35,155 nucleotides of DNA from Elusimicrobia bacterium HGW-Elusimicrobia-3. Lineage in GTDB: Bacteria > Elusimicrobiota > Elusimicrobia > Elusimicrobiales > UBA9959. The DNA is taken from positions 37,904 through 73,058 of the forward strand of contig PHAL01000023.1 in NCBI GenBank assembly GCA_002840355.1. The letters run 5' to 3'. A model generated the notes under the pieces. It saw nothing but the letters and a program-made list of their open reading frames with translations, ran no database searches and was not told the origin of the DNA. Positions 7,453 to 27,022 of the stretch are shown piece after piece. The translations under genes and the position numbers were made by a program. Position 1 is the stretch's first letter. Every line of letters starts with the position of its first letter.

Positions 7453-7571
7453 ACCGAGGGCAAGGGGGCCGCGCGACTTTGGGGAAGGGGGGCCCGCCCC
7501 TCTTTTTCCGGGGCGGGGGGAACCGCGCAACGGTTCCCCTCTTCCAGGAGCGCGGTACCCTTGCCCTCGGT
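7453..7571. repeat. 119-bp imperfect palindrome with 22-bp terminal inverted repeats
   Basis: The ends (7453-7474 and 7550-7571) are inverted repeats over 22 bases with two mismatches; the outer 14 (ACCGAGGGCAAGGG) are perfect. Inside are two more hairpins: CCCGCCCC/GGGGCGGG around a T-run (about 7493-7517) and GGGGAACCG/CGGTTCCCC (about 7517-7539). It has no coding capacity and lies between two convergent genes. It could be a MITE-like element, a REP-type element or a complex terminator. A target-site duplication is not clear. Confidence 0.65.
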
Positions 7572-7585
7572 TGCGTGAGAGCATT

Positions 7586-7614
7586 AAAGAAAAAGCCGGA
7601 CAACAGTCCGGCTT
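7586..7614 (-). terminator. rho-independent terminator of the CsgG-like lipoprotein operon
   Basis: A perfect 9-bp stem AAGCCGGAC/GTCCGGCTT (7593-7601, 7606-7614) around a 4-base loop. On the minus strand it is followed by TTTCTTT, a good terminator tail. On the plus strand the tail (CGTCTTTT) is weaker. Confidence 0.85.
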
Positions 7615-7635
7615 CGTCTTTTGTATGGAGAGGGC

Positions 7636-8268
7636 TTACTTGGGCTTGTAGAGGCCCGGCCAGATAGGGGACAGCGAGCGCACGAAAGCGTCGGTGATGC
7701 CGGTCATCGCCGAGGCCACGTCGAAACCCTCGTAGGCCATCGAAGCCGACCACATGATGGAGCCGGTCTGCACGTCGACCATGCGCGACAGCAGCGACAC
7801 GTTGGCCGTGGTGCTGAGCAGCTGCGAGTTGGGCATGCCCATCACGGAGCCCTCGGAATAGACGGTGCCGCCGCTGACCTGCGTCATCGAGGTGTGGCGC
7901 GGGTTGTCTGACTGGCTGACTATGTAGGAGCTCTGCGGCGTGCTCTCGGCCACCGTGCCCACGAACAGCGCGTCCACGCCCAGCAGCTTGCCCAGCTGTT
8001 TGGCGGTGGCCGGGTCGAAAGAGCCGGAGTCGGCCAGCGACTGCTCGCGCAGTACGGCGTCCAGGCGCTGGCGCTCCACCACGTCGGCGCCGTGCATCAG
8101 CAGGCTCTGGGTCATCAGGTCGGCGGCCAGCTCGCCGCTGGGGCCGCTGAAGGAGATCACGGCCACCCGCTTTACCGAGGAGAAGTCCGAGCGGGGGTTC
8201 ACGGCCACCCTGGGGGCGGCGCAGGCGGCTAGCAGCAGCAGTACCGGCAGCAATAGTTGTTTTTTCAT
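7636..8268 (-). CDS. CsgG-like outer-membrane-associated lipoprotein
   Basis: A 210-residue lipoprotein. A type II signal peptide is clear (MKKQLLLPVLLLLAAC, lipid-bearing Cys16). The mature part resembles the CsgG/GNA1162-like fold: KRVAVISFSGPSGELAADLMTQSLL, then VVERQRLDAVLREQSL, then a strand containing LGVDALFVGTV, and a C-terminal SRMVDVQTGSIMWSASM segment. In CsgG proper this fold builds an outer-membrane secretion channel, but many CsgG-like lipoproteins are of unknown role. No curli subunit gene is present, so curli export is not implied. It starts 4 bases after the stop of the TPR gene and lacks a clear ribosome-binding site, so it is probably translated by coupling. Confidence 0.85.
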   Translation of the reverse strand: MKKQLLLPVLLLLAACAAPRVAVNPRSDFSSVKRVAVISFSGPSGELAADLMTQSLLMHGADVVERQRLDAVLREQSLADSGSFDPATAKQLGKLLGVDALFVGTVAESTPQSSYIVSQSDNPRHTSMTQVSGGTVYSEGSVMGMPNSQLLSTTANVSLLSRMVDVQTGSIMWSASMAYEGFDVASAMTGITDAFVRSLSPIWPGLYKPK

Positions 8269-12259: not shown

Positions 12260-13162
12260 TTACTTAAGGATGTCGGTTTTCTGCACCGCGGCCTTGGTCT
12301 CGGCAACGGAGAACTTGGGGTTAACCTTTACCACCTTGGCCGTCCCTATCTTCTCCTCCTCGGAGCCCAGCGATTCGCCGGTATCCGGGTCCACCATGTC
12401 CTCGCCCATGCGGTAGACGCCGTAGACGCGGCCTACCTTCTCGCCGTCGGCGCTCCCGGAGTTGATGTAGACCTGATTGCCGCTGATCTTGATGATCTTC
12501 ACCGCCCCGCCGCCGCCCTCGTCGAAAGCTTTGGTGATCTCCTTGACCACGTCCTCCACGGCCTTGCGGGCCGCCTTGCCGATGATGGTCTCGTCGAAGC
12601 CGTCCTTGCCGAAGTCGAAACTGGGCGCTATGCTGAGGTTGCCGGAGAATTCGGCGCTGGACTTGCTGCCCTCGCCCTTGGCCGCCGCCACGATCTGCGC
12701 GGAGGTGGTGTCGATGGCGCGCACGTCTATGGCCGCGCGGGCGGTGTTCTTGGCCACCTTGGCCCCGCCGCCGAACGGCAGCACTTTCTCCAGGCCGCCC
12801 ACGCCGATCTTGCTGTCCTTCACGCCGAATTCGGTAATAGCTCCGGTAATGATGTAGTTGGCGCCCAGCAGGCGGCCTATCCTGGCCGCGGTCTGCGCGG
12901 TCACCGCGCCCGAGGCGCCCAGGCGCTGCTCGTCCAGCACCTTGTCGAGCTTCTCCCGCTCTATCAGGGTATATTTTTTGGTCCCGGCCAGGGCCGTAAC
13001 CAGCATGTCCGCCACGCCGGTGCCCACGTTCCGCCAGCCGTGGCTGTGGCTGGATTTGTCCTGCAGCTCCATCACGCAGATGATCTTCTTGCCCGCGCAG
13101 TAGCCCGGCGCCGCCGCCAGCAGCAGCAGCGAAAGCGAGACGAGAATTGTCCGTTTATTCAT
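12260..13162 (-). CDS. exported CsgG-domain protein
   Basis: A 300-residue protein. The ATG at 13162 (GGGAGGAAAAAA upstream) is chosen over an in-frame upstream extension to 13216, because it gives a clean signal peptide (KRTILVSLSLLLLAAAPGYCA). The core matches the CsgG family: YTLIEREKLDKVLDEQRLGASGAVTAQTAARIGRLLGANYIITGAITEFG (about 70-120), then a VDVRAIDTTSAQIV-type segment. There is no lipobox, unlike true CsgG. Residues 215-300 form a separate beta-rich C-terminal domain (KISGNQVYINSGSADGEKVGRVYGVYR, KVVKVNPKFSVAETKA). Function unknown; presumably an envelope assembly or transport role. It is monocistronic with a strong terminator. Confidence 0.85.
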   Translation of the reverse strand: MNKRTILVSLSLLLLAAAPGYCAGKKIICVMELQDKSSHSHGWRNVGTGVADMLVTALAGTKKYTLIEREKLDKVLDEQRLGASGAVTAQTAARIGRLLGANYIITGAITEFGVKDSKIGVGGLEKVLPFGGGAKVAKNTARAAIDVRAIDTTSAQIVAAAKGEGSKSSAEFSGNLSIAPSFDFGKDGFDETIIGKAARKAVEDVVKEITKAFDEGGGGAVKIIKISGNQVYINSGSADGEKVGRVYGVYRMGEDMVDPDTGESLGSEEEKIGTAKVVKVNPKFSVAETKAAVQKTDILK

Positions 13163-13221
13163 TTTTTTCCTCCCTAAACTGCCCGTCGTTAAATGATAGC
13201 AAAAAACCCCGGCCACGGATT

Positions 13222-16534: not shown

Positions 16535-18079
16535 ATGAAAAATATTTTATTCCTCCTGCTGTTCGCCTGCTGCTGCCCGTCCGCCGCGGCCCAGCAGCCC
16601 GCCGCCCCGGCGCCGGGCAGCTACGACTACGGCATGCTGCAGTACCGGCAGGGCGACCATGCCGGGGCCAAGGAAACCTTCGTGAGCCTGCTCATCGCCG
16701 ATCCCGCCGGCGCCGGCGCGCTGGAGGGCCTGGGCCTGGCCTGCCTGGCGTTGGGCCAGTATGACGAAGCGGCCGTCTACCTGGAGAAATGGAACGCCCG
16801 GTCGCCCGGCAAACCTTATATATTGGGCCTGCTGCAGCGCGCGCAGGCCGGCGCCGGCGACGAGCGCGGCGCCTTGCGCACCAACAGGGAACTGGCCGGG
16901 CTGGACCCCCGCGATTGCGCCGCGCGGCAGCGCGCCGAGAACGGCGCCGAGCGGGCCGGCAGCGCCGTCACCCCCAAAGCCAGGGCCTACCGGTCGGTTT
17001 CGCTGGAAGACCTGGATACCGCCAGCCCGCAGCGCATCATTTACGAGGGCAGTTCGGCCGGGGCCAGGTTCCGCGCGCCGCTCACCGGCGGCCTGGACCT
17101 GATCGGCGGCGCCGAGATCCGCACCGACGCGCAGCGCAACGACGGCCGGGGCTTCACTTATTTCGAGATACAGGAGCAGGCTTACACGGCCGGCCTCACG
17201 GGCCGGCTGCGCGGGCGCGCCCGGTGGGAGGCCGAAGCCGGCCAGTCTGTCTTCACCGAAGTCTCCGCGCCCGGCGGAGCGCCGCTGGCCATGGGCCGGG
17301 GCCGCCTGTCGCTGCGGCGGGCCGCCTCTTCGCTGGACCTGGCCAGCCAGCCCAAGTTGGTGCGCGTGGCCGGCGGCGGGCGCTTCTACCGGCTGCTGCG
17401 CGAGAGCACGGCCCGGGCCGAAGCCGAAGGCATGCTGCTGGGCCTGGACCTGCTCGGCCGCGCCGGTTTCAGTAATCTCTCCGGCGGCAGGACGCTGGGC
17501 AACCTCTACCTGCGCGGCCTGCGCGATCTGGGCTGGAGCGCCGGGGCCGCCTCCTACTCCCACGGTCAGCAGGAATTTTACAGCGCCGCCGCCTCGGGCC
17601 GGCTGCGCTACGTGCACGCCGACCGCCTCGGCGCCTCCGTCACCCGCCTGGCGCAGGGGGCCTACCGCGCCTCGGCTTCGGCCTACCAGACCTATTATTC
17701 AGACTCCAACAGGCTGCTCGATACCGGCGCCAGTCTTACCGCCTGGCTGCCCTGGCAGAAAGAGTTCTCCGCCGGCTACCGCTACTCCAACCTGGACTTC
17801 CGCCGGGCCTATTCCGGCTACGATACGGTGGACGAGACCGGCCACTGGCTCGGCGCGGGCTGGCGCCGCTGCGCCGGCTACAACTGGTCCGCCGCCGCCG
17901 GCTACGAGCACGGCTACGTTACCGACAGCCTGCTCTCCTACCACGCCGACGTCTACACCGCCGAGGCCGAATGGTACTCCGACCGCGGTTCGCTGAAATT
18001 CACCGGCCGGCGCAGGACCACCGGCGGGCGCGGCCATTCCTGGTCGGCCGGCCTGCAGGCCCGCTACAGCTTTAAATGA
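16535..18079 (+). CDS. TPR plus outer-membrane beta-barrel protein (YaiO/PgaA-like)
   Basis: A 514-residue protein. The ATG at 16535 gives a signal peptide (KNILFLLLFACCCPSAAA-QQ) and is preferred over an in-frame upstream extension to 16316 that would run through the sirtuin gene. Residues about 28-130 are TPR-like (DYGMLQYRQGDHAGAKETFVSLL, LGLACLALGQYDEAAVYLEKW). From about 160 to the end, alternating polar/aromatic strands (for example YQTYYSDSNRLLDTGASLTAWLPW, FSAGYRYSNLDFRRAYSGY, GLQARYSFK) look like a 14-18 strand outer-membrane barrel, as in YaiO-family proteins and the PgaA export porin. The layout suits polysaccharide export. No Shine-Dalgarno sequence is evident. Its stop overlaps the next start (ATGA). 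Confidence 0.82.
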   Translation: MKNILFLLLFACCCPSAAAQQPAAPAPGSYDYGMLQYRQGDHAGAKETFVSLLIADPAGAGALEGLGLACLALGQYDEAAVYLEKWNARSPGKPYILGLLQRAQAGAGDERGALRTNRELAGLDPRDCAARQRAENGAERAGSAVTPKARAYRSVSLEDLDTASPQRIIYEGSSAGARFRAPLTGGLDLIGGAEIRTDAQRNDGRGFTYFEIQEQAYTAGLTGRLRGRARWEAEAGQSVFTEVSAPGGAPLAMGRGRLSLRRAASSLDLASQPKLVRVAGGGRFYRLLRESTARAEAEGMLLGLDLLGRAGFSNLSGGRTLGNLYLRGLRDLGWSAGAASYSHGQQEFYSAAASGRLRYVHADRLGASVTRLAQGAYRASASAYQTYYSDSNRLLDTGASLTAWLPWQKEFSAGYRYSNLDFRRAYSGYDTVDETGHWLGAGWRRCAGYNWSAAAGYEHGYVTDSLLSYHADVYTAEAEWYSDRGSLKFTGRRRTTGGRGHSWSAGLQARYSFK

Positions 18080-19020
18080 AGAGCCTGGCCCTGGCCGTCC
18101 TGCTGCTGGTCGGGCCGGCCGCGCTGTACGCGGCCCCGCCGCTCCGCGCCGTCTGGATGTGGGAAGCCGAGTCCTACGCGCTGCTGGAAAGCCCGCGGGC
18201 GGCGAAGAAAGCCATAAAGTTCCTGAAGTCCAAAGGGGTGGGGACGCTGTACCTCTACGCCGACGCCTACAAGGGCCGCAGCCTCATCGAGAACAAGCCG
18301 AAGCTGTACCGCAACCTGCTCCGCCGGCTGAACAAGGAAGGGCTGAACGCCTACGCGCTGCTGGGCTCCTGGCATTTGCGCACGCACGAGTACGTGCTGC
18401 CGGAGCGCCGGGCGGAAGCGCGGGCTATGTTCCAGCGGGTGCTGGATTATAACGCGGCGGCCCGGCCGGGGGAGCGCTTCGACGGGGTGAACCTGGACAT
18501 AGAGCCGCACATGCTCGACGCCTGGGAGACGGACCGGGAGGGGCTGCTGCTGAATTTCCTGGACCTGGGCCGCGACCTGATGGCGCTGAAGGCGCGCTCC
18601 GGCCTGGCCCTCGAGGTGGGGCCGGCCATACCGTTCTGGCTCGACGGGATAGAGCTGGAATGGGAGGGGCGCAGGAAGCCGGCCAGCGAGCACGTGCTGG
18701 ATATTTACGATTACGCGGCGCTGATGGCCTATCGCGACCGGGCCGCCGGCCGTGACGGGATCATAGCTCTGTCTGCCTCCGAGCTGGCCTACGCCGGCAG
18801 CCTCGGCAAGCGGCTGGCTGTGGGCGTGGAAGTGACGCCCAACGAGGTGAAAAAAATTTCTTTCAGCCGCTTGGCGGAGGCCGACCTGGAGCGCGAACTG
18901 GCGCTAGCCGGGGAAGCTTTTGCGCGGGAGCCGGCTTTCAGCGGGTTCGTGCTGCACCATTACGAGAGCTACCGGGCCTGGCTGGACGCGCAGGGCGGCA
19001 AAAAAAGGAAAGGGAAATGA
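18076..19020 (+). CDS. exported GH18-like TIM-barrel protein (putative glycoside hydrolase)
   Basis: A 314-residue exported protein with signal peptide MKSLALAVLLLVGPAALYA. The rest reads as a TIM barrel: GVGTLYLYADAY near 54-65 and GLNAYALLGSWH near 89-100. FDGVNLDIEPHML near 135-147 matches the GH18 DG-x-D-x-D-x-E signature, except that the middle Asp is Asn139; D141 and E143 keep the catalytic pair. IYDYAALMAYRD near 210-221 is the GH18-like strand 6. It probably cuts or remodels a beta-linked polysaccharide in the periplasm, comparable in position to the hydrolase half of PgaB. It overlaps the upstream barrel gene and the downstream kinase gene by 4 bases each. Confidence 0.75.
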   Translation: MKSLALAVLLLVGPAALYAAPPLRAVWMWEAESYALLESPRAAKKAIKFLKSKGVGTLYLYADAYKGRSLIENKPKLYRNLLRRLNKEGLNAYALLGSWHLRTHEYVLPERRAEARAMFQRVLDYNAAARPGERFDGVNLDIEPHMLDAWETDREGLLLNFLDLGRDLMALKARSGLALEVGPAIPFWLDGIELEWEGRRKPASEHVLDIYDYAALMAYRDRAAGRDGIIALSASELAYAGSLGKRLAVGVEVTPNEVKKISFSRLAEADLERELALAGEAFAREPAFSGFVLHHYESYRAWLDAQGGKKRKGK

Positions 19021-19376
19021 AAAAGAGACTGCGCAGCTTTAAATACGCTTTCAACGGGATAATCTGCGTGGCCTCCACCGAGGCCAATTTTCAGATCCAC
19101 GTCGCGGCGGCGGCGGCGGCCCTCTTCCTGGGCTTTTTGCTGGGCATCTCGGCCGTGGAATGGTGCCTGGTGCTGCTATGCTTCGCCGCCGTGCTGTCGG
19201 CTGAGGCGCTTAACAGCGCCGTGGAGAAACTTACCGACCTGGTCTCGCCCGGGCGCCGCCCCGAGGCCGGGACAGTGAAGGACATGGCCGCGGGGGCGGT
19301 GCTCCTCTCCGCCATGATGGCGGCGGCGGTAGGCTGCATTATTTTTCTGCCCAAGATAGCGGCCCGCCTGGGCTAG
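19017..19376 (+). CDS. dgkA: DgkA-type undecaprenol/diacylglycerol kinase
   Basis: A 119-residue integral membrane kinase with about three hydrophobic helices (30-45, 47-63, 92-113). The family signature SAEALNSAVEKLTDL (61-75) contains E63, N66 and E70; an N-terminal amphipathic helix with FKYAFNGI and a VKDMAAGAVL segment (88-97) complete the active site. These enzymes phosphorylate diacylglycerol or undecaprenol at the inner membrane, and the latter recycles the carrier lipid used for wall and capsule sugars. Its ATG overlaps the preceding stop (ATGA), so it is the last gene of the barrel-hydrolase operon. Its 3' end overlaps the convergent phosphatase gene by 4 bases. Confidence 0.93.
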   Translation: MKKRLRSFKYAFNGIICVASTEANFQIHVAAAAAALFLGFLLGISAVEWCLVLLCFAAVLSAEALNSAVEKLTDLVSPGRRPEAGTVKDMAAGAVLLSAMMAAAVGCIIFLPKIAARLG

Positions 19377-20473
19377 CGCTGCTTTACCCTCTTGTAGGTC
19401 GCTATGAAGTCCGAGCTTTCCGGCGAGCGGGAGAGGAAGGCGTGCACCACCAGCGGTTTCTTGAAGGCCGTCATTTCCCTGACGGCCTTCTCCTTTTCCA
19501 GCCGGCCCAGCGAGCGCCAGGGGTAGTTGGCGTACTTGAGGCCGTACTCGGCGGCTATTTTCTTTTCCTTCCGTATCCAGGGCAGGTCTTCGGGATTCTT
19601 CGGGTCCAGCAGCGAGACCAGCGAGGCCACCGTGCCGTTGAGCACGTAGCCGAAAAATTCCTCGTCGGTGGGATAGGGGGTGAAGAAAACGTCCGTCGCC
19701 AGGGCGGTTATGGCGCCCCTCTCGAATTTGGTTATATCCCGCAGGCTGCGCGCCGAGCCGGGCTGCGCGCCGGACACCCTGGCGTCTCCCGCCATCGAGA
19801 CCAGCATATTCCTGAAAACGTTCACCCTGTCCTTGCCCAGGTAGCAGTGCACGTAGTAACGGCCGCCCCTGGCCAGCAGCTCTTCCAACTTGGCCTTCAC
19901 GTGGTCGTTGGAGGAGACCCAGGGCAGCATGGGTATATGTATCAGCTCCACGCCCGCCTTGCCCGCCGCGGAGATCTCCGTGTTGAGCAGCATCGGCTCG
20001 AAAGGCACCACGGCCCGGCTGAGCAGGGAGATTACGCCGGTGTAACCCTCGCCCTTGAGTTCCGCCAGCCGCGCGGCTTCCGGGTAAGGGCCGAAAACGA
20101 ATTCAGCCCCCGCGTAAGTGTCCGAGCTGGTCTTCATGCCGGCGTCTATCATCAGCTTGGGGTTCATCCAGGCCAAGAGCGCGGCGGCGAACAGCGCCAG
20201 CGACAGGGCCGGCAGGGCGTAGCGCCGGCGGCCGGGCATGGCCTCGGTCTTAAGCGTCAGCAGCCGGGCCAGCAGCAGCGAGACGGCGGCCAAGGCGCCG
20301 ATGAAGGAGAGCACCAGTAATTTTTCGGCGAGGGCGCTCCAGCCGGCGCCGCGAGTATAGTTGGTGGCCCAGCGTACAGGGCCCATCAGCGTCAGCGTGC
20401 CCAGGAAGAAGCCCGTCAGCACCCAGTGCCAGAGGAAGAGCGCGGCGCGTTTAATGCCTATATTCTCTATCAT
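19373..20473 (-). CDS. membrane-anchored tandem dual-specificity-type phosphatase, second domain degenerate
   Basis: A 366-residue protein. Three membrane helices at about 10-31, 50-71 and 86-104 anchor it. Two related domains follow. In domain 1 (about 124-220), FVFGPYPEAARL and GVISLLSR lead to the P-loop HCYLGKDR (C210, R216), a complete C-x5-R site. In domain 2 (about 262-355), VFFTPYPTDEEF and SLVSLLDP lead to HAFLSRSP at 344-351, where the catalytic Cys and Arg are replaced by Ala345 and Pro351, so it cannot be an active phosphatase of this class. It overlaps the glycosyltransferase stop by ATGA. It may regulate polysaccharide synthesis or dephosphorylate a lipid-linked substrate. Confidence 0.8.
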   Translation of the reverse strand: MIENIGIKRAALFLWHWVLTGFFLGTLTLMGPVRWATNYTRGAGWSALAEKLLVLSFIGALAAVSLLLARLLTLKTEAMPGRRRYALPALSLALFAAALLAWMNPKLMIDAGMKTSSDTYAGAEFVFGPYPEAARLAELKGEGYTGVISLLSRAVVPFEPMLLNTEISAAGKAGVELIHIPMLPWVSSNDHVKAKLEELLARGGRYYVHCYLGKDRVNVFRNMLVSMAGDARVSGAQPGSARSLRDITKFERGAITALATDVFFTPYPTDEEFFGYVLNGTVASLVSLLDPKNPEDLPWIRKEKKIAAEYGLKYANYPWRSLGRLEKEKAVREMTAFKKPLVVHAFLSRSPESSDFIATYKRVKQR

Positions 20474-21888
20474 ACCGCGGTCCCCTTTTTCTCGAAAACC
20501 CGCCTGTCCTGAGTGCCCCAGTCCTTCTTCCTGAAGGTCAGGGTGGCTTTAAGCCGTTCCAGCAGCATGATCTGCCTGTAACCGAAGAACTCGGCGGCCG
20601 ACAGCACGCAGAGCCGCAGTATGTCCGACGTCCTGTTGTAGCGGCGGAAATTATAAATATCCAGGAAGACCGCCCCGATATTGATGGAGATGCCCCAGAA
20701 CACGGCCAGCAGCACCAGCATGACCAGGAACTTCGTGCTGAGCAGGCCGAAATAATAGAGCACCGGGATGGACAGGTAGCCGAAGAGCTCTATCAGCGGC
20801 CCCAGGAACTCCACGAAGACGAAGTAGGAGATGCCGATAAGACTGGTGGCCCCGTACTTGCGGTTGAGTATCATCTCGCGGTTGGTCAGCAGCGCGTCTA
20901 TCATGCCCCGGTGCCAGCGGTTGCGCTGCTTGAGCAGCATGCGCAGGCTGTACGGGGCCTGGGTCCAGCAGACCGGGTCCGGCACGAAGAGGATCTTGTA
21001 GGGAATGGCGCGGTCCCGGCAGTGGCGGTGCAGGCGCATTACCAGGTCCATATCCTCGCCTACCGTCTTGCGGTAGCCGTTGACCGCCACCACCATGTCC
21101 TTGCGGAACACGCCGAAGGCGCCCGAGATGATCAGCAGGCTTTTTAAAGCGTTCCAGCCGGTGCGGCCGGAGAGGAAGGCGCGCGTGTATTCCAGCACCT
21201 GCATGGCTTCCAGGAAGCCGCGGGGCAGGCCTATCTCCGTCACGGCGCCGTCCCGCACCATGCAACCGTTGAGGATGCGGATGATGCCGCCGGTGGCTAT
21301 CAGCTCGTCGTCCTCCAGGAACAGCTTGGAGGATTTGAGCAGGGCGTCGGGCTCGAGCAGTGAGTCGGCGTCTATCGAGCAGAAGATGGGATAGGCGGAG
21401 ACGTTGATGCCGGCGTTGATGGCGTCGGCCTTGCCGCCGTTGAACTTGTCCACCACTATCAGGTGGCGGTAGACGGACGAGCGGTAGACGCCGCGGATGG
21501 CCTCGTGCGGCACCTGCAGGCGCACCGGCTTGGCGCAGGGCAGCAGGCTGAAATCCAGGCGCAGGCGCTCCAGCGTATCGTCCGTGGACCCGTCGTTGAC
21601 CACTATAACCTCGAATTCGGGGTAATGCAGGTTGAGCAGGGCCTGCACGCTTTGGGTGATGACGGCGGCCTCGTTGTGGGCCGGGACTATGACGGAGACC
21701 GGCTTGAAATAGAACTCGCTGGCCAGCTGCCGCCGGGACACGCGAGAGGTGGTGAGGTAGGCGTGGCGCACTATGTCGCGCAGGGCGAGCAGGATGAGCG
21801 CGGTATAGACCGAGTTGATGGCCAGGAAGTAGAGGAAGAGCACGTACTGCGAGACGTGGACGGCGGCCCAGAGAAGGAAAAATTTCAC
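20470..21888 (-). CDS. processive family 2 glycosyltransferase (PgaC/IcaA-like)
   Basis: A 472-residue inner-membrane synthase. The GTG start at 21888 has AGGAGG four bases upstream and overlaps the HEAT-gene stop (GTGA). N-terminal helices (about 3-38) are followed by the GT-A domain: VSVIVPAHNEAAVI (64-77), VVNDGSTDD (D99), SIDADS (D173, D175), VGEDMD (E278, D279) and QRNRW (321-325), the hallmark of processive beta-glycan synthases. Three or more C-terminal membrane helices lie at about 345-410. It probably polymerises and extrudes a beta-linked polysaccharide from a UDP- or GDP-sugar. There is no PilZ domain, so no direct cyclic-di-GMP control is seen. It lies in an operon with cheY-like, HEAT and phosphatase genes. 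Confidence 0.9.
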   Translation of the reverse strand: MKFFLLWAAVHVSQYVLFLYFLAINSVYTALILLALRDIVRHAYLTTSRVSRRQLASEFYFKPVSVIVPAHNEAAVITQSVQALLNLHYPEFEVIVVNDGSTDDTLERLRLDFSLLPCAKPVRLQVPHEAIRGVYRSSVYRHLIVVDKFNGGKADAINAGINVSAYPIFCSIDADSLLEPDALLKSSKLFLEDDELIATGGIIRILNGCMVRDGAVTEIGLPRGFLEAMQVLEYTRAFLSGRTGWNALKSLLIISGAFGVFRKDMVVAVNGYRKTVGEDMDLVMRLHRHCRDRAIPYKILFVPDPVCWTQAPYSLRMLLKQRNRWHRGMIDALLTNREMILNRKYGATSLIGISYFVFVEFLGPLIELFGYLSIPVLYYFGLLSTKFLVMLVLLAVFWGISINIGAVFLDIYNFRRYNRTSDILRLCVLSAAEFFGYRQIMLLERLKATLTFRKKDWGTQDRRVFEKKGTAV

Positions 21889-22973
21889 GCGGCCTCCTGG
21901 CCCAGGGCGTAGGCCGCCGTAGAGGCCGCGAAGGCGTCGGCCCCGGCCGCCTCTTCGCGCAGCGCCGCGCGGCCTTTTTCGCCGCTCTTCGCCAGCGCCA
22001 GCGCGGCGTTGAGCCGCACGTGGTAGTTGGGGTCGCGCAGCAGGGCGCGTATCTCCGGGATCATGTCCATGCAGCAGAGATGGGCGTATTTCAGGGCCGC
22101 CAGGCGCACGCGCCAGTCCGGGTGCCGGATGGCCGCGGGCATGACGGAGAAATCGCCTATGCGCGCCAGCGCCTTGACGGCCGCCATCAGTATCTCCGGC
22201 TCTTCCGGGAAGGCCGCGTAATACTCCATGAGCAGGCCGCGGCCCTTCTCGCAGGAGGCGGCGTAGCAAGCCGTGATGCAGTCCCGCTTTACCAGGTTCA
22301 GCACGGCGCCGTCGTGCATGATCTCCCGCATGAAGATGCCGAACTCGGCCTCGTTGCCGGCGGCCTTGAGCGCGGTTATGATGTTGTAGAAGATATCCTC
22401 GGTATACTTGGCCGTCAGGTAGGGCAGGCCGGAGAGCATGCGCGCCAGCGCGCGGATGTCGGAATGCTCCCGGGTGAGGAGGCTCAGGCCGTAGATGATG
22501 CGGTAGCGCACGTCCAGGGAGGTCTCGCTGCGGAAGACGGCCAGGAAGAATTCCTTATTGGCCTTTAGCCTGAATGAGGAGAGTATGTCTATGGCGTTGC
22601 CGCGCTTGTACCAGACCCGGTGTCTGGCCAGGCGGCGGTAATGCTCGTCGATGCCCAGGTCGGAGATGAGTCCCACCGCCTTTACCGCGATCTCGCCCTC
22701 GAAGCTGTCCAGCACGCTGGCTATCGCCTCGCTGTAGGCGGCGAAATCCTCCTCGTCGGCCGGCTTGGGGAGAAGTTCCGCGGGATCGGTGGCCGTGATG
22801 AGCGCCGTGGAGGCCAGCCGCTTGAGGTCCTGGCGCTTCAGCTCGGAACGCTCCACGCGGGCCTTGTTCCAGAGCAGGAAAAGGACCTCGGCCACGTTGA
22901 ACACGCCGAGCAGCAGCACGGCGGCGGTCACGTAGTCGTAGAAATGCGGGGACTGGGTGAGTATCTCCAGCAA
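21885..22973 (-). CDS. membrane-anchored HEAT-repeat protein
   Basis: A 362-residue protein. It has no early ATG; the TTG at 22973 gives the longest reasonable frame and has GAGGCG upstream. A single hydrophobic helix lies at about 15-36 (VTAAVLLLGVFNVAEVLFLLW), then a fully helical repeat domain. The C-terminal 90 residues are clear HEAT repeats (HPDWRVRLAALKYAHL, DPNYHVRLNAALALAKSG, AFAASTAAYALGQ); the middle is a more diverged solenoid. HEAT solenoids are protein-binding scaffolds. It sits between a CheY-like gene and the glycosyltransferase, whose start it overlaps, suggesting that it links the regulator to the synthase. The exact start is uncertain. Confidence 0.8.
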   Translation of the reverse strand: MLEILTQSPHFYDYVTAAVLLLGVFNVAEVLFLLWNKARVERSELKRQDLKRLASTALITATDPAELLPKPADEEDFAAYSEAIASVLDSFEGEIAVKAVGLISDLGIDEHYRRLARHRVWYKRGNAIDILSSFRLKANKEFFLAVFRSETSLDVRYRIIYGLSLLTREHSDIRALARMLSGLPYLTAKYTEDIFYNIITALKAAGNEAEFGIFMREIMHDGAVLNLVKRDCITACYAASCEKGRGLLMEYYAAFPEEPEILMAAVKALARIGDFSVMPAAIRHPDWRVRLAALKYAHLCCMDMIPEIRALLRDPNYHVRLNAALALAKSGEKGRAALREEAAGADAFAASTAAYALGQEAA

Positions 22974-23007
22974 GGTTCGCCTCGGGGCGCCGGGGCGCCC
23001 TACCTAG

Positions 23008-23379
23008 TTACTTTCTGCTCTGCAGGAATTTCTCGATCCTCAGTTTCAGGTGCTCGACGTTGGTCGGCTTCGTGATGTACTCTTCTATGCCCAGGCCATA
23101 GCTGCGCTTTATGTTGGACTCCTGCTTCAGGGAGGTCATCATGAAAATGGGTATCCCCTTGGTGGCCGGGTTTTCCTTCAGTTTTTTCGCCACGTCGAAG
23201 CCGGACATCCTGGGCATGTTGATGTCGAGCAGCAGCAGGTCGGGCTGGAAGGCTTCCGCCTTCGCCAGGCCTTCGGGACCGTCGTAGGCCTCCTCGATGG
23301 TGTGGCCGGCCTTGGTGAGGTAGGCCCGGCAGATGAGGTGTATGGTCTCGTCGTCGTCGATGATAAGTATTTTAGCCAT
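23008..23379 (-). CDS. stand-alone CheY-like response regulator
   Basis: A 123-residue single receiver domain. The acidic pocket is D8-D9-D10, the phosphoacceptor D52 (LLLLDINMPRMSG), and the switch and lysine residues are T82 (FMMTS) and K104 (ITKPTN). There is no output domain, so it acts through a partner, plausibly the adjacent HEAT protein. The stop lies 34 bases before the HEAT gene start. No cognate kinase is adjacent; the REC-kinase at 25883 is a possible source of phosphate. A GC-rich hairpin ends 9 bases before its ATG and contains the only candidate ribosome-binding site (GGGA). Confidence 0.92.
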   Translation of the reverse strand: MAKILIIDDDETIHLICRAYLTKAGHTIEEAYDGPEGLAKAEAFQPDLLLLDINMPRMSGFDVAKKLKENPATKGIPIFMMTSLKQESNIKRSYGLGIEEYITKPTNVEHLKLRIEKFLQSRK

Positions 23380-25882: not shown

Positions 25883-27022
25883 ATGAAAGATCGTGAACTT
25901 TCGGTAATAGCCGTCGACGACGACGAGGCGCTGCTGGGCTTTCTCAAGCGCGCTTTCGAAGGAGCCAAGTCCTTTGTGTCGTATTCGTCCGCGCCTGATT
26001 TTCTGGCGCGCGCCGAGCTGGAGCGCTGCGACATCGTCTTCGTGGATATCAACATGCCGGGCGGGCAGGACGGCCTCAGCCTGACGCGCCACATCAAGCG
26101 CGTGGCCCCGCAATGCGACGTGGTGGTGATCACCGGCGAGGCCACGCTGGACAACGCGGTGGCCGCCATCAAGGCCGGCGCCTACGATTTCCTCACCAAA
26201 CCTTTTTCCTACGACAGCCTGGAGACCGCCGTGGACCGCTGCGTGGAGAAGCGCGCCATCTCTTCCGAGTTGCGGCTGATCAAGGCCGCGCAGGGCGAGC
26301 TGTCGGCCGCTTACTCGCAGCTCAAGAGCGCCGAGCGCATGAAGGAGGCTTTCCTGTCCGTGATAGGCCACGAACTGCGCACGCCGCTGGCCAAGATACA
26401 TGGCGGGCTGGAACTGCTCAGGGACGCCCCCGAGGCCCAGCGCGCCGCCCTGATGGGCACGGCCCTGACCGGGGCCAGGGAACTGCGCGAGGTGATAGAA
26501 TCCCTGTTACTTTACGCCGAGTCCAGCAAGGAGGCCGCCCCTGAGAACTGCGCCGGCGTCAACCTCGACGAACTGGCGGCGGGGGTGGCGGCGGAGCTGG
26601 CCCCCCGGGCGGCGGCGGCCGGCGTGACGCTGACCTTGCGCCGCTCCGAGGGCGCGCCCGTGGTGGAGGGACACCCCGACTGGCTGCGCAGCGCCTTCCG
26701 GCAGCTGGCGCTCAACGCCATCGCTTTCAACAAGAAGGGCGGCAGCGCGGAGATCTCCGTGCTGGACAAGCCGGACTATGCCGAGGTAACCGTCAGCGAC
26801 AGCGGCATCGGCATACCGAAGGAACTGCTCTCCGGCCTGGGCAACCCGTTCTACCAGGTGGCCGACTACCTGACCAGGAAAACGGGCGGGCTCGGCCTCG
26901 GCCTCGCCATAGTAAAGCGGGTGGCCGAGGCGCATAAAGGCAGCGTTACGGTGAGGAGCGAGCCGGGCAAAGGGACGGTGTTCACCGTCACTTTCAGGAA
27001 GGCCGGCGCCTGCTCCGGTTAG
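25883..27022 (+). CDS. REC-histidine kinase hybrid
   Basis: A 379-residue cytosolic protein with a reversed hybrid layout. An N-terminal receiver domain (about 6-120; phosphoacceptor D55 in VFVDINMPG, K107 in LTKPFSY) is followed by a short coiled coil (about 125-155) and a histidine kinase. The H-box is VIGHELRTPLAK with H163. The ATPase domain shows the N-box (ALNAIAFNKKGG), G1 (VSDSGIGIP) and G2 (GGLGLGLAI). There is no membrane segment or sensor domain, so its input is probably phosphorylation of its own receiver. It may phosphorylate the stand-alone CheY-like protein at 23008. It starts 28 bases after msrA, preceded by a G-rich ribosome-binding site. Confidence 0.92.
   Translation: MKDRELSVIAVDDDEALLGFLKRAFEGAKSFVSYSSAPDFLARAELERCDIVFVDINMPGGQDGLSLTRHIKRVAPQCDVVVITGEATLDNAVAAIKAGAYDFLTKPFSYDSLETAVDRCVEKRAISSELRLIKAAQGELSAAYSQLKSAERMKEAFLSVIGHELRTPLAKIHGGLELLRDAPEAQRAALMGTALTGARELREVIESLLLYAESSKEAAPENCAGVNLDELAAGVAAELAPRAAAAGVTLTLRRSEGAPVVEGHPDWLRSAFRQLALNAIAFNKKGGSAEISVLDKPDYAEVTVSDSGIGIPKELLSGLGNPFYQVADYLTRKTGGLGLGLAIVKRVAEAHKGSVTVRSEPGKGTVFTVTFRKAGACSG

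Follow-up and report, generated by a model that had tools for sequence, protein, structure and literature searches.

A HEAT-repeat protein as regular partner of a GT2 synthase in a predicted polysaccharide cassette of Elusimicrobia

Synthase-dependent polysaccharide systems are mostly understood as being controlled by cyclic-di-GMP. In Escherichia coli PgaABCD, the system for poly-beta-1,6-GlcNAc, a processive membrane glycosyltransferase of family GT2 is combined with a periplasmic hydrolase of the PgaB fold and a TPR/beta-barrel exporter, and in NfrBA-YbcH a GT2 synthase and a TPR outer-membrane protein are encoded in one operon (PMC8669469). Here we describe a seven-gene locus at positions 16535-23379 of a 35,155-nucleotide stretch of DNA (the window) from Elusimicrobia bacterium HGW-Elusimicrobia-3 (contig PHAL01000023.1), a metagenome-assembled genome whose named relatives are GWB2_63_22, GWD2_63_28, GWA2_61_42, STC_50 and GWB2_63_16. 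The locus resembles these systems in its parts, and its synthase falls in a branch of GT2 enzymes that are encoded beside a HEAT-repeat protein, which points to a different, protein-based control.

All seven open reading frames (ORFs) are intact and free of internal stops. An earlier note on this DNA, made from the letters alone, had described a barrel, a hydrolase and DgkA on the plus strand converging, with overlapping genes, on a CheY-like protein, a HEAT protein, a GT2 synthase and a phosphatase on the minus strand. This gene content and arrangement were upheld, with Pfam matches for the TPR part of the barrel (TPR_16, E=4e-8), DgkA (DAGK_prokar, PF01219, E=5.5e-34), the GT2 synthase (E=1.2e-21), the HEAT protein (HEAT_2, E=4e-14) and the receiver (Response_reg, PF00072, E=6e-27). 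In window coordinates the genes are as follows.

16535..18079, plus strand: TPR protein with a predicted outer-membrane beta-barrel, candidate exporter (TPR matches, signal-like N-terminus, C-termini of homologues)
18076..19020, plus strand: GH18-like TIM-barrel glycoside hydrolase with signal peptide and the motif DGVNLDIEP (predicted model and fold match)
19017..19376, plus strand: DgkA-type lipid kinase, for diacylglycerol or undecaprenol
19373..20473, minus strand: tandem DSP-type phosphatase with an anchor of three transmembrane (TM) segments, second half degenerate, predicted periplasmic (alignment, model, fold search, topology)
20470..21888, minus strand: processive membrane GT2 synthase of the HEAT-partnered subfamily, with NDGS, DADS, GED and QRNRW (Pfam and NCBIfam, motifs, tree, tblastn across phyla)
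21885..22973, minus strand: membrane-anchored cytoplasmic HEAT-repeat protein, proposed as a dedicated synthase subunit (HEAT_2, topology, adjacency to GT2)
23008..23379, minus strand: stand-alone CheY-like receiver that keeps D9, D52, T82 and K104 (Pfam, alignment)

In the plus run the genes overlap at ATGA, at 18076 between barrel and GH18-like hydrolase and at 19017 between the latter and DgkA. The minus run reads CheY, HEAT, GT2, phosphatase, with a GTGA overlap of 4 bp between HEAT and GT2 and an ATGA overlap between GT2 and phosphatase; the 34 bp between CheY and HEAT are its sole non-overlapping junction. The two runs meet tail to tail and share the four bases CTAG at 19373-19376. Further upstream in the window, at 12260-13216, stands a CsgG/LpoB-like gene (PF03783, E=9e-39) that adjoins one for an SLT transglycosylase.

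The pairing of HEAT and GT2 genes across phyla is strongly supported. Searches by tblastn with the window synthase yielded full-length relatives of 31-43% identity on plasmids and chromids of Halosolutus, Haloarcula, Salinirubellus, Paenibacillus, Planococcus, Deinococcus, Mesorhizobium, Erythrobacter, Devosia, Emticicia, Bacteroides and Legionella. In a maximum-likelihood tree the 27 subfamily sequences, from Elusimicrobiota, Bacillota, Deinococcota, Pseudomonadota, Bacteroidota and haloarchaea, lie on one side of a single branch with support of 100/99 that is present in all 200 bootstrap trees; the other side holds PgaC, YaiP and five plasmid GT2s without HEAT neighbours, and BcsA, OpgH and NfrB were left out since their rows were scarcely alignable. 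Every one of the 27 has a HEAT gene directly adjoining, while none of 10 control loci (the five plasmid GT2s outside the branch and five E. coli GT2s) has a HEAT neighbour, so that the tie between HEAT and synthase suggested by the earlier note holds well beyond the host genome. With GT2 as the starting point, each of the seven distant Elusimicrobiota copies (loci L021 and L052-L057) proved to have a HEAT gene immediately upstream, and so did each of the 12 different copies examined on plasmids (Bacillota, Deinococcota, Alphaproteobacteria, Legionella, Bacteroidota and haloarchaea), the Emticicia HEAT being a weak match (HEAT_2 E=2.4e-5, 25.0 bits against a cut-off of 27.7). Starting from HEAT, GT2 was present in 9/9 loci of the closer family.

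GT2 is the better bait of the two because HEAT sequences diverge too fast. The window HEAT protein gave no tblastn matches among plasmids, and its hhalign comparison with one haloarchaeal HEAT protein was weak (probability 6.6%). HEAT orthology thus rests on position and architecture rather than on sequence. The architecture consists of a single N-terminal TM segment, predicted N-out/C-in with basic residues C-terminal of it, which would place the repeats in the cytoplasm; it is kept in most homologues, and two annotated HEAT ORFs that lack the segment probably have truncated starts. In one Elusimicrobiota lineage (L056:9179-12868) a HEAT solenoid of 1230 residues adjoins GT2 instead of the usual partner of 360 residues.

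The window synthase has NDGS96, DADS173, GEDMD and QRNRW321 together with TM segments, and thus the DxD, ED and QxxRW signature of processive inner-membrane GT2 enzymes (alignment gaps shift these residue numbers, and those behind the topology predictions, by a few positions). It was previously labelled PgaC-like, and the locus PgaABC-like. This label did not survive: the enzyme scores 120 bits against a PgaC_IcaA equivalog cut-off of 422, has 28% local identity to E. coli PgaC over 275 amino acids, and branches apart from PgaC in the tree. Judged by these comparisons, it represents a separate, apparently unnamed and widespread subfamily. In Halosolutus (L029:7582-10556) a sugar nucleotidyltransferase gene and glmS directly follow GT2, a hint of a UDP-amino sugar substrate and an amino-sugar polymer. 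The Legionella locus has a nucleotide-sugar dehydrogenase and epimerases near its HEAT-GT2 pair; because these differ from the amino-sugar genes of Halosolutus, the polymers may differ between loci. On a Planococcus plasmid (L037) the pair is flanked by a polyphosphate polymerase/DUF4956/CotH run on one side and a Qat anti-phage gene on the other.

Plus and minus run together make up one mobile-like cassette. CheY, HEAT and GT2 are contiguous in all nine family loci, the window included, with the barrel gene never more than about 10 kb away; L018 alone lacks the phosphatase and DgkA genes, and GH18 is missing only from L017 and L018. Strand and gene order vary among these loci, and L024, L026 and L027 have GH18 in the opposite orientation, with a gene of the lipoteichoic acid (LTA) synthase type ahead of it. 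Among 150 Elusimicrobiota genomes, the barrel gene was found in exactly the five with a close HEAT (5/5 against 0/145; p=1.7e-9, a Fisher value that, like the others, ignores phylogeny). The corresponding counts in locus-bearing and other genomes were 4/5 and 0/145 for the phosphatase, 3/5 and 0/145 for GH18 and 4/5 and 3/145 for DgkA, which is thus present in seven of the 150 genomes, four times at the cassette locus. The cassette is missing from two genomes of the genus of the window and from a genus-mate of genome G087. In G087 the entire cassette sits between the SRAP and PPI genes; in G115, of the same genus, this site is empty, with SRAP at 7475-8203 and PPI starting 87 bp on, and in G081 SRAP and PPI are likewise direct neighbours without a cassette. 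The proposal that the two runs belong together is therefore borne out by a presence/absence block with an empty site. The earlier note had named two observations that would speak against it, separation of the runs in related genomes and a failure of HEAT and CheY to co-occur with the synthase; neither was encountered in the relatives examined, the trio being contiguous throughout the family and the HEAT-GT2 pair recurring far beyond the host.

The window receiver is phospho-competent as judged by its residues, since the acidic pair, acceptor Asp, Thr and Lys are all kept in alignment. Stand-alone receivers also lie upstream of HEAT, at most a few genes away, in seven loci outside the Elusimicrobia (haloarchaeal, Mesorhizobium, Erythrobacter, Devosia and Emticicia), where Hpt proteins flank the receiver-HEAT-GT2 sets of Mesorhizobium and Devosia and histidine kinases adjoin those of Haloarcula and Erythrobacter. 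Signalling from CheY through HEAT to the synthase is plausible on this basis. At 25883-27022 of the window, between MsrA and a cNMP-binding gene that are adjacent in relatives such as L017, stands an inserted receiver-histidine kinase fusion, which is therefore specific to the lineage of the window and could be a partner of CheY.

The barrel protein has TPRs at its N-terminus, a signal-like start and the C-terminus ARYSFK, its homologues ending in ARYSF or ARYNF; it matched no known barrel family. It had been called PgaA/YaiO-like. The TPR part of this description stands, and the YaiO label was rejected: Pfam gave no PF19413 match in eight barrel homologues at E<=10, NCBIfam no TIGR04390 match in the window barrel, and hhalign against YaiO a probability of 0.2%. 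Elsewhere, HEAT-GT2 loci do hold YaiO barrels or TPR proteins (Mesorhizobium, Emticicia, Legionella, Bacteroides, Erythrobacter and Devosia), with YaiO barrels in the first four. No YaiO barrel or TPR protein was found at the inspected haloarchaeal or Bacillota loci, and this distribution over diderm loci is what an outer-membrane exporter should show. In the cassette this slot is taken by the window barrel, which has no detectable similarity to YaiO.

The GH18-like protein is sub-threshold in Pfam (E=0.039). Among PDB structures, its AlphaFold (AF2) model (pLDDT 81) matches the fold of E. coli PgaB best (4f9j, Foldseek E=1.8e-6), and the predicted fold thus corroborates the supposed resemblance to the hydrolase half of PgaB. 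A homologue (E=2.5e-27, motif DGIHLDVEP) opens a gene run in Paenibacillus cellulosilyticus that ends in HEAT-GT2, and in Paenibacillus, Planococcus and Deinococcus the HEAT gene follows genes for large, mutually related proteins.

The presence of DgkA, which the profile match confirmed, has its likeliest reason in diacylglycerol salvage, because in E. coli DgkA salvages the diacylglycerol released when OpgB transfers phosphoglycerol to periplasmic oligosaccharide (PMC8027125). An LTA-synthase/OpgB-type gene is found in five of the eight other family loci: one type (Sulfatase E=5.8e-30; PDB relatives VP1736 and a lipoteichoic acid primase) in L020, L024, L026 and L027, and a second that adjoins the barrel in L018, L020 and L026. 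It is absent from the window locus, and one remote relative exists elsewhere in the host genome. When the first type was searched against 72,556 plasmids, the top match was an Emticicia gene beside HEAT-GT2-YaiO (E=1e-101, 353 bits, the next strongest among the matches listed having 102), a blind confirmation of its linkage to HEAT-GT2. In L017 (3844-5871) the interval from DgkA to phosphatase, which holds the LTA-synthase-like gene in other relatives, encodes a GT-C/PMT-like membrane protein, and this suggests a swappable modification slot.

The HCYLGKDR loop of the phosphatase (H209-C210-YLGKD-R216, CX5R) is invariant in seven homologues, and its model (pLDDT 72) has a weak DSP/DUF442-like fold match (E about 1e-3). 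The second half has HAFLSxSP at the corresponding place and has lost both Cys and Arg, so that the supposed tandem phosphatase is one unit with a catalytic motif joined to one degenerate unit. The N-terminus has three TM segments, and a positive loop between TM2 and TM3 predicts, by the positive-inside rule, a periplasmic domain, which makes it unlikely to act on CheY, and a role as CheY phosphatase is accordingly disfavoured. No homologues were found in plasmids. The gene of G087 (L019:6989-8079) is split over two frames that overlap, through either a frameshift or an error of assembly; the locus is otherwise intact.

We consider it reasonably probable that the cassette is a synthase-dependent surface polysaccharide system in which HEAT serves the synthase as a dedicated subunit and a phosphorelay often provides the input. 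The membrane GT2 would polymerise sugar, probably from a UDP-sugar, and move the polymer across the inner membrane; the TPR/beta-barrel protein would export it and the GH18-like enzyme trim it. In sister genomes the LTA-synthase/OpgB-type transferase may decorate the polymer from phospholipid head groups, and DgkA may recycle the diacylglycerol that is left. Membrane-anchored HEAT would act allosterically on the synthase, in the slot held elsewhere by PgaD, PilZ or MshEN, and the phosphorylated CheY-like protein would dock on it to switch the synthase on or off. The polysaccharide function is well supported by the logic of the families involved, and receiver, barrel, hydrolase and transferase partners recur around the pair; the view that the locus makes, trims and exports a polysaccharide is thus supported by gene content, export itself being predicted. 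A broader proposal is more tentative, and we lean slightly away from it: HEAT-GT2 may be a synthase class common to bacteria and haloarchaea, switched allosterically by HEAT reading a phosphorylated stand-alone receiver, with neither cyclic-di-GMP nor transcription involved.

Several observations weigh against parts of this picture. The HEAT-GT2 loci of Paenibacillus, Planococcus, Deinococcus, Bacteroides, Legionella and most distant Elusimicrobiota have no receiver nearby; in Emticicia the phospho-accepting Asp of the receiver is replaced by Asn, and the Elusimicrobia locus shows no conserved cognate kinase. The receiver thus counts as a frequent input rather than a core part. GH18-like relatives often lie far from HEAT-GT2, four of five inspected plasmid matches being unlinked, and with a single linked case the homologue was rejected as a reliable marker of the pair. 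The window and two relatives keep DgkA but have no LTA-type gene, and L018 shows the reverse combination; a strict pairing rule proved imperfect across the family, so that diacylglycerol recycling fits imperfectly. The universality of HEAT, set against the patchy receiver with its Emticicia substitution and the 34-bp gap before HEAT among otherwise overlapping genes, would also agree with HEAT serving constitutively in the assembly or stability of the synthase, the part that PgaD plays for PgaC, with CheY acting elsewhere and no phospho-switch on the synthase. We regard this as somewhat unlikely, since a stand-alone receiver encoded directly before HEAT recurs in haloarchaea, Alphaproteobacteria and Elusimicrobiota, such receivers lack a DNA-binding domain, and kinases or Hpt proteins lie nearby in several loci.

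The LTA-synthase/OpgB-type enzymes and DgkA of the family loci, together with the established OpgB-DgkA coupling of E. coli (PMC8027125), would also suit a periplasmic or membrane-linked glycan, similar to osmoregulated periplasmic glucans or teichoic acids and bearing phosphoglycerol or phosphoethanolamine, in place of an exported exopolysaccharide. Such a product is unlikely, given that every family locus has a TPR/beta-barrel gene and that several diderm relatives encode YaiO or TPR proteins next to HEAT-GT2; moreover, no OpgG or OpgH relatives were found at the locus and the window is without the transferase. Control of an ordinary Pga/Nfr-type system by cyclic-di-GMP made elsewhere draws on the distant PgaC similarity of GT2 and on the five GGDEF matches that the host genome has outside the locus. 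That genome also has four polysaccharide-deacetylase matches elsewhere. The absence of a deacetylase, PilZ domain or cyclic-di-GMP gene noted earlier holds at the locus, where no GGDEF, EAL, PilZ or MshEN domain and, among the seven proteins in Pfam, no deacetylase domain (the PgaB N-terminus) or PgaD was found, and fails for the genome as regards GGDEF and deacetylase genes. We think this control quite improbable, as GT2 forms a branch of its own, lacks a PilZ, MshEN or PgaD-like partner at the locus and has HEAT-paired relatives in haloarchaea, which argues against cyclic-di-GMP as the general signal of the module; a GGDEF control search gave no matches in Haloferax, Methanosarcina and other archaeal controls. 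A chance neighbourhood of unrelated genes, to which the two convergent strands and the variable gene order might point, is contradicted by the empty-site presence/absence block, by p-values down to that of the barrel and by the cross-phylum linkage, and deserves hardly any credence.

The HEAT-partnered branch spans at least five bacterial phyla and the haloarchaea, often with phosphorelay proteins, and it offers a concrete hypothesis of function for many genes annotated merely as 'HEAT repeat domain-containing protein' and 'glycosyltransferase'. Since the module is found in culturable organisms (Mesorhizobium, Paenibacillus, Emticicia and Haloarcula), the hypothesis is directly testable. No description of a HEAT-GT2 polysaccharide module was found among the 5.39 million open-access papers searched, and its novelty is provisional because subscription papers were outside the scope of the search.

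Compared with the described systems, the cassette shares with PgaABCD a processive membrane GT2, a periplasmic hydrolase of PgaB-like fold and a candidate TPR/beta-barrel exporter, and differs in having neither deacetylase nor PgaD, in the separate branch of its GT2, and in a HEAT protein and receiver in place of cyclic-di-GMP control. NfrBA-YbcH is similar in combining a GT2 synthase with a TPR outer-membrane protein, whereas NfrB has a C-terminal MshEN cyclic-di-GMP domain where the cassette has a separate HEAT protein, and sequence similarity to NfrB is negligible. Several relatives combine an LTA/OpgB-type transferase and DgkA with an adjoining membrane GT2, which recalls OpgB (MdoB)-DgkA of osmoregulated periplasmic glucans and BcsG of phosphoethanolamine-cellulose, although the transferase is absent from the window and the GT2 is not OpgH. 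TpbA of Pseudomonas aeruginosa is an extracytoplasmic DSP phosphatase and a weak fold match of the cassette phosphatase (E about 0.03), which differs in its anchor of three TM helices and its fusion to a degenerate second half. As for the YaiO/YaiP locus, finally, YaiP lies outside the HEAT-partnered branch and the window barrel shows no detectable similarity to YaiO, while YaiO barrels stand beside HEAT-GT2 in the four genera named above.

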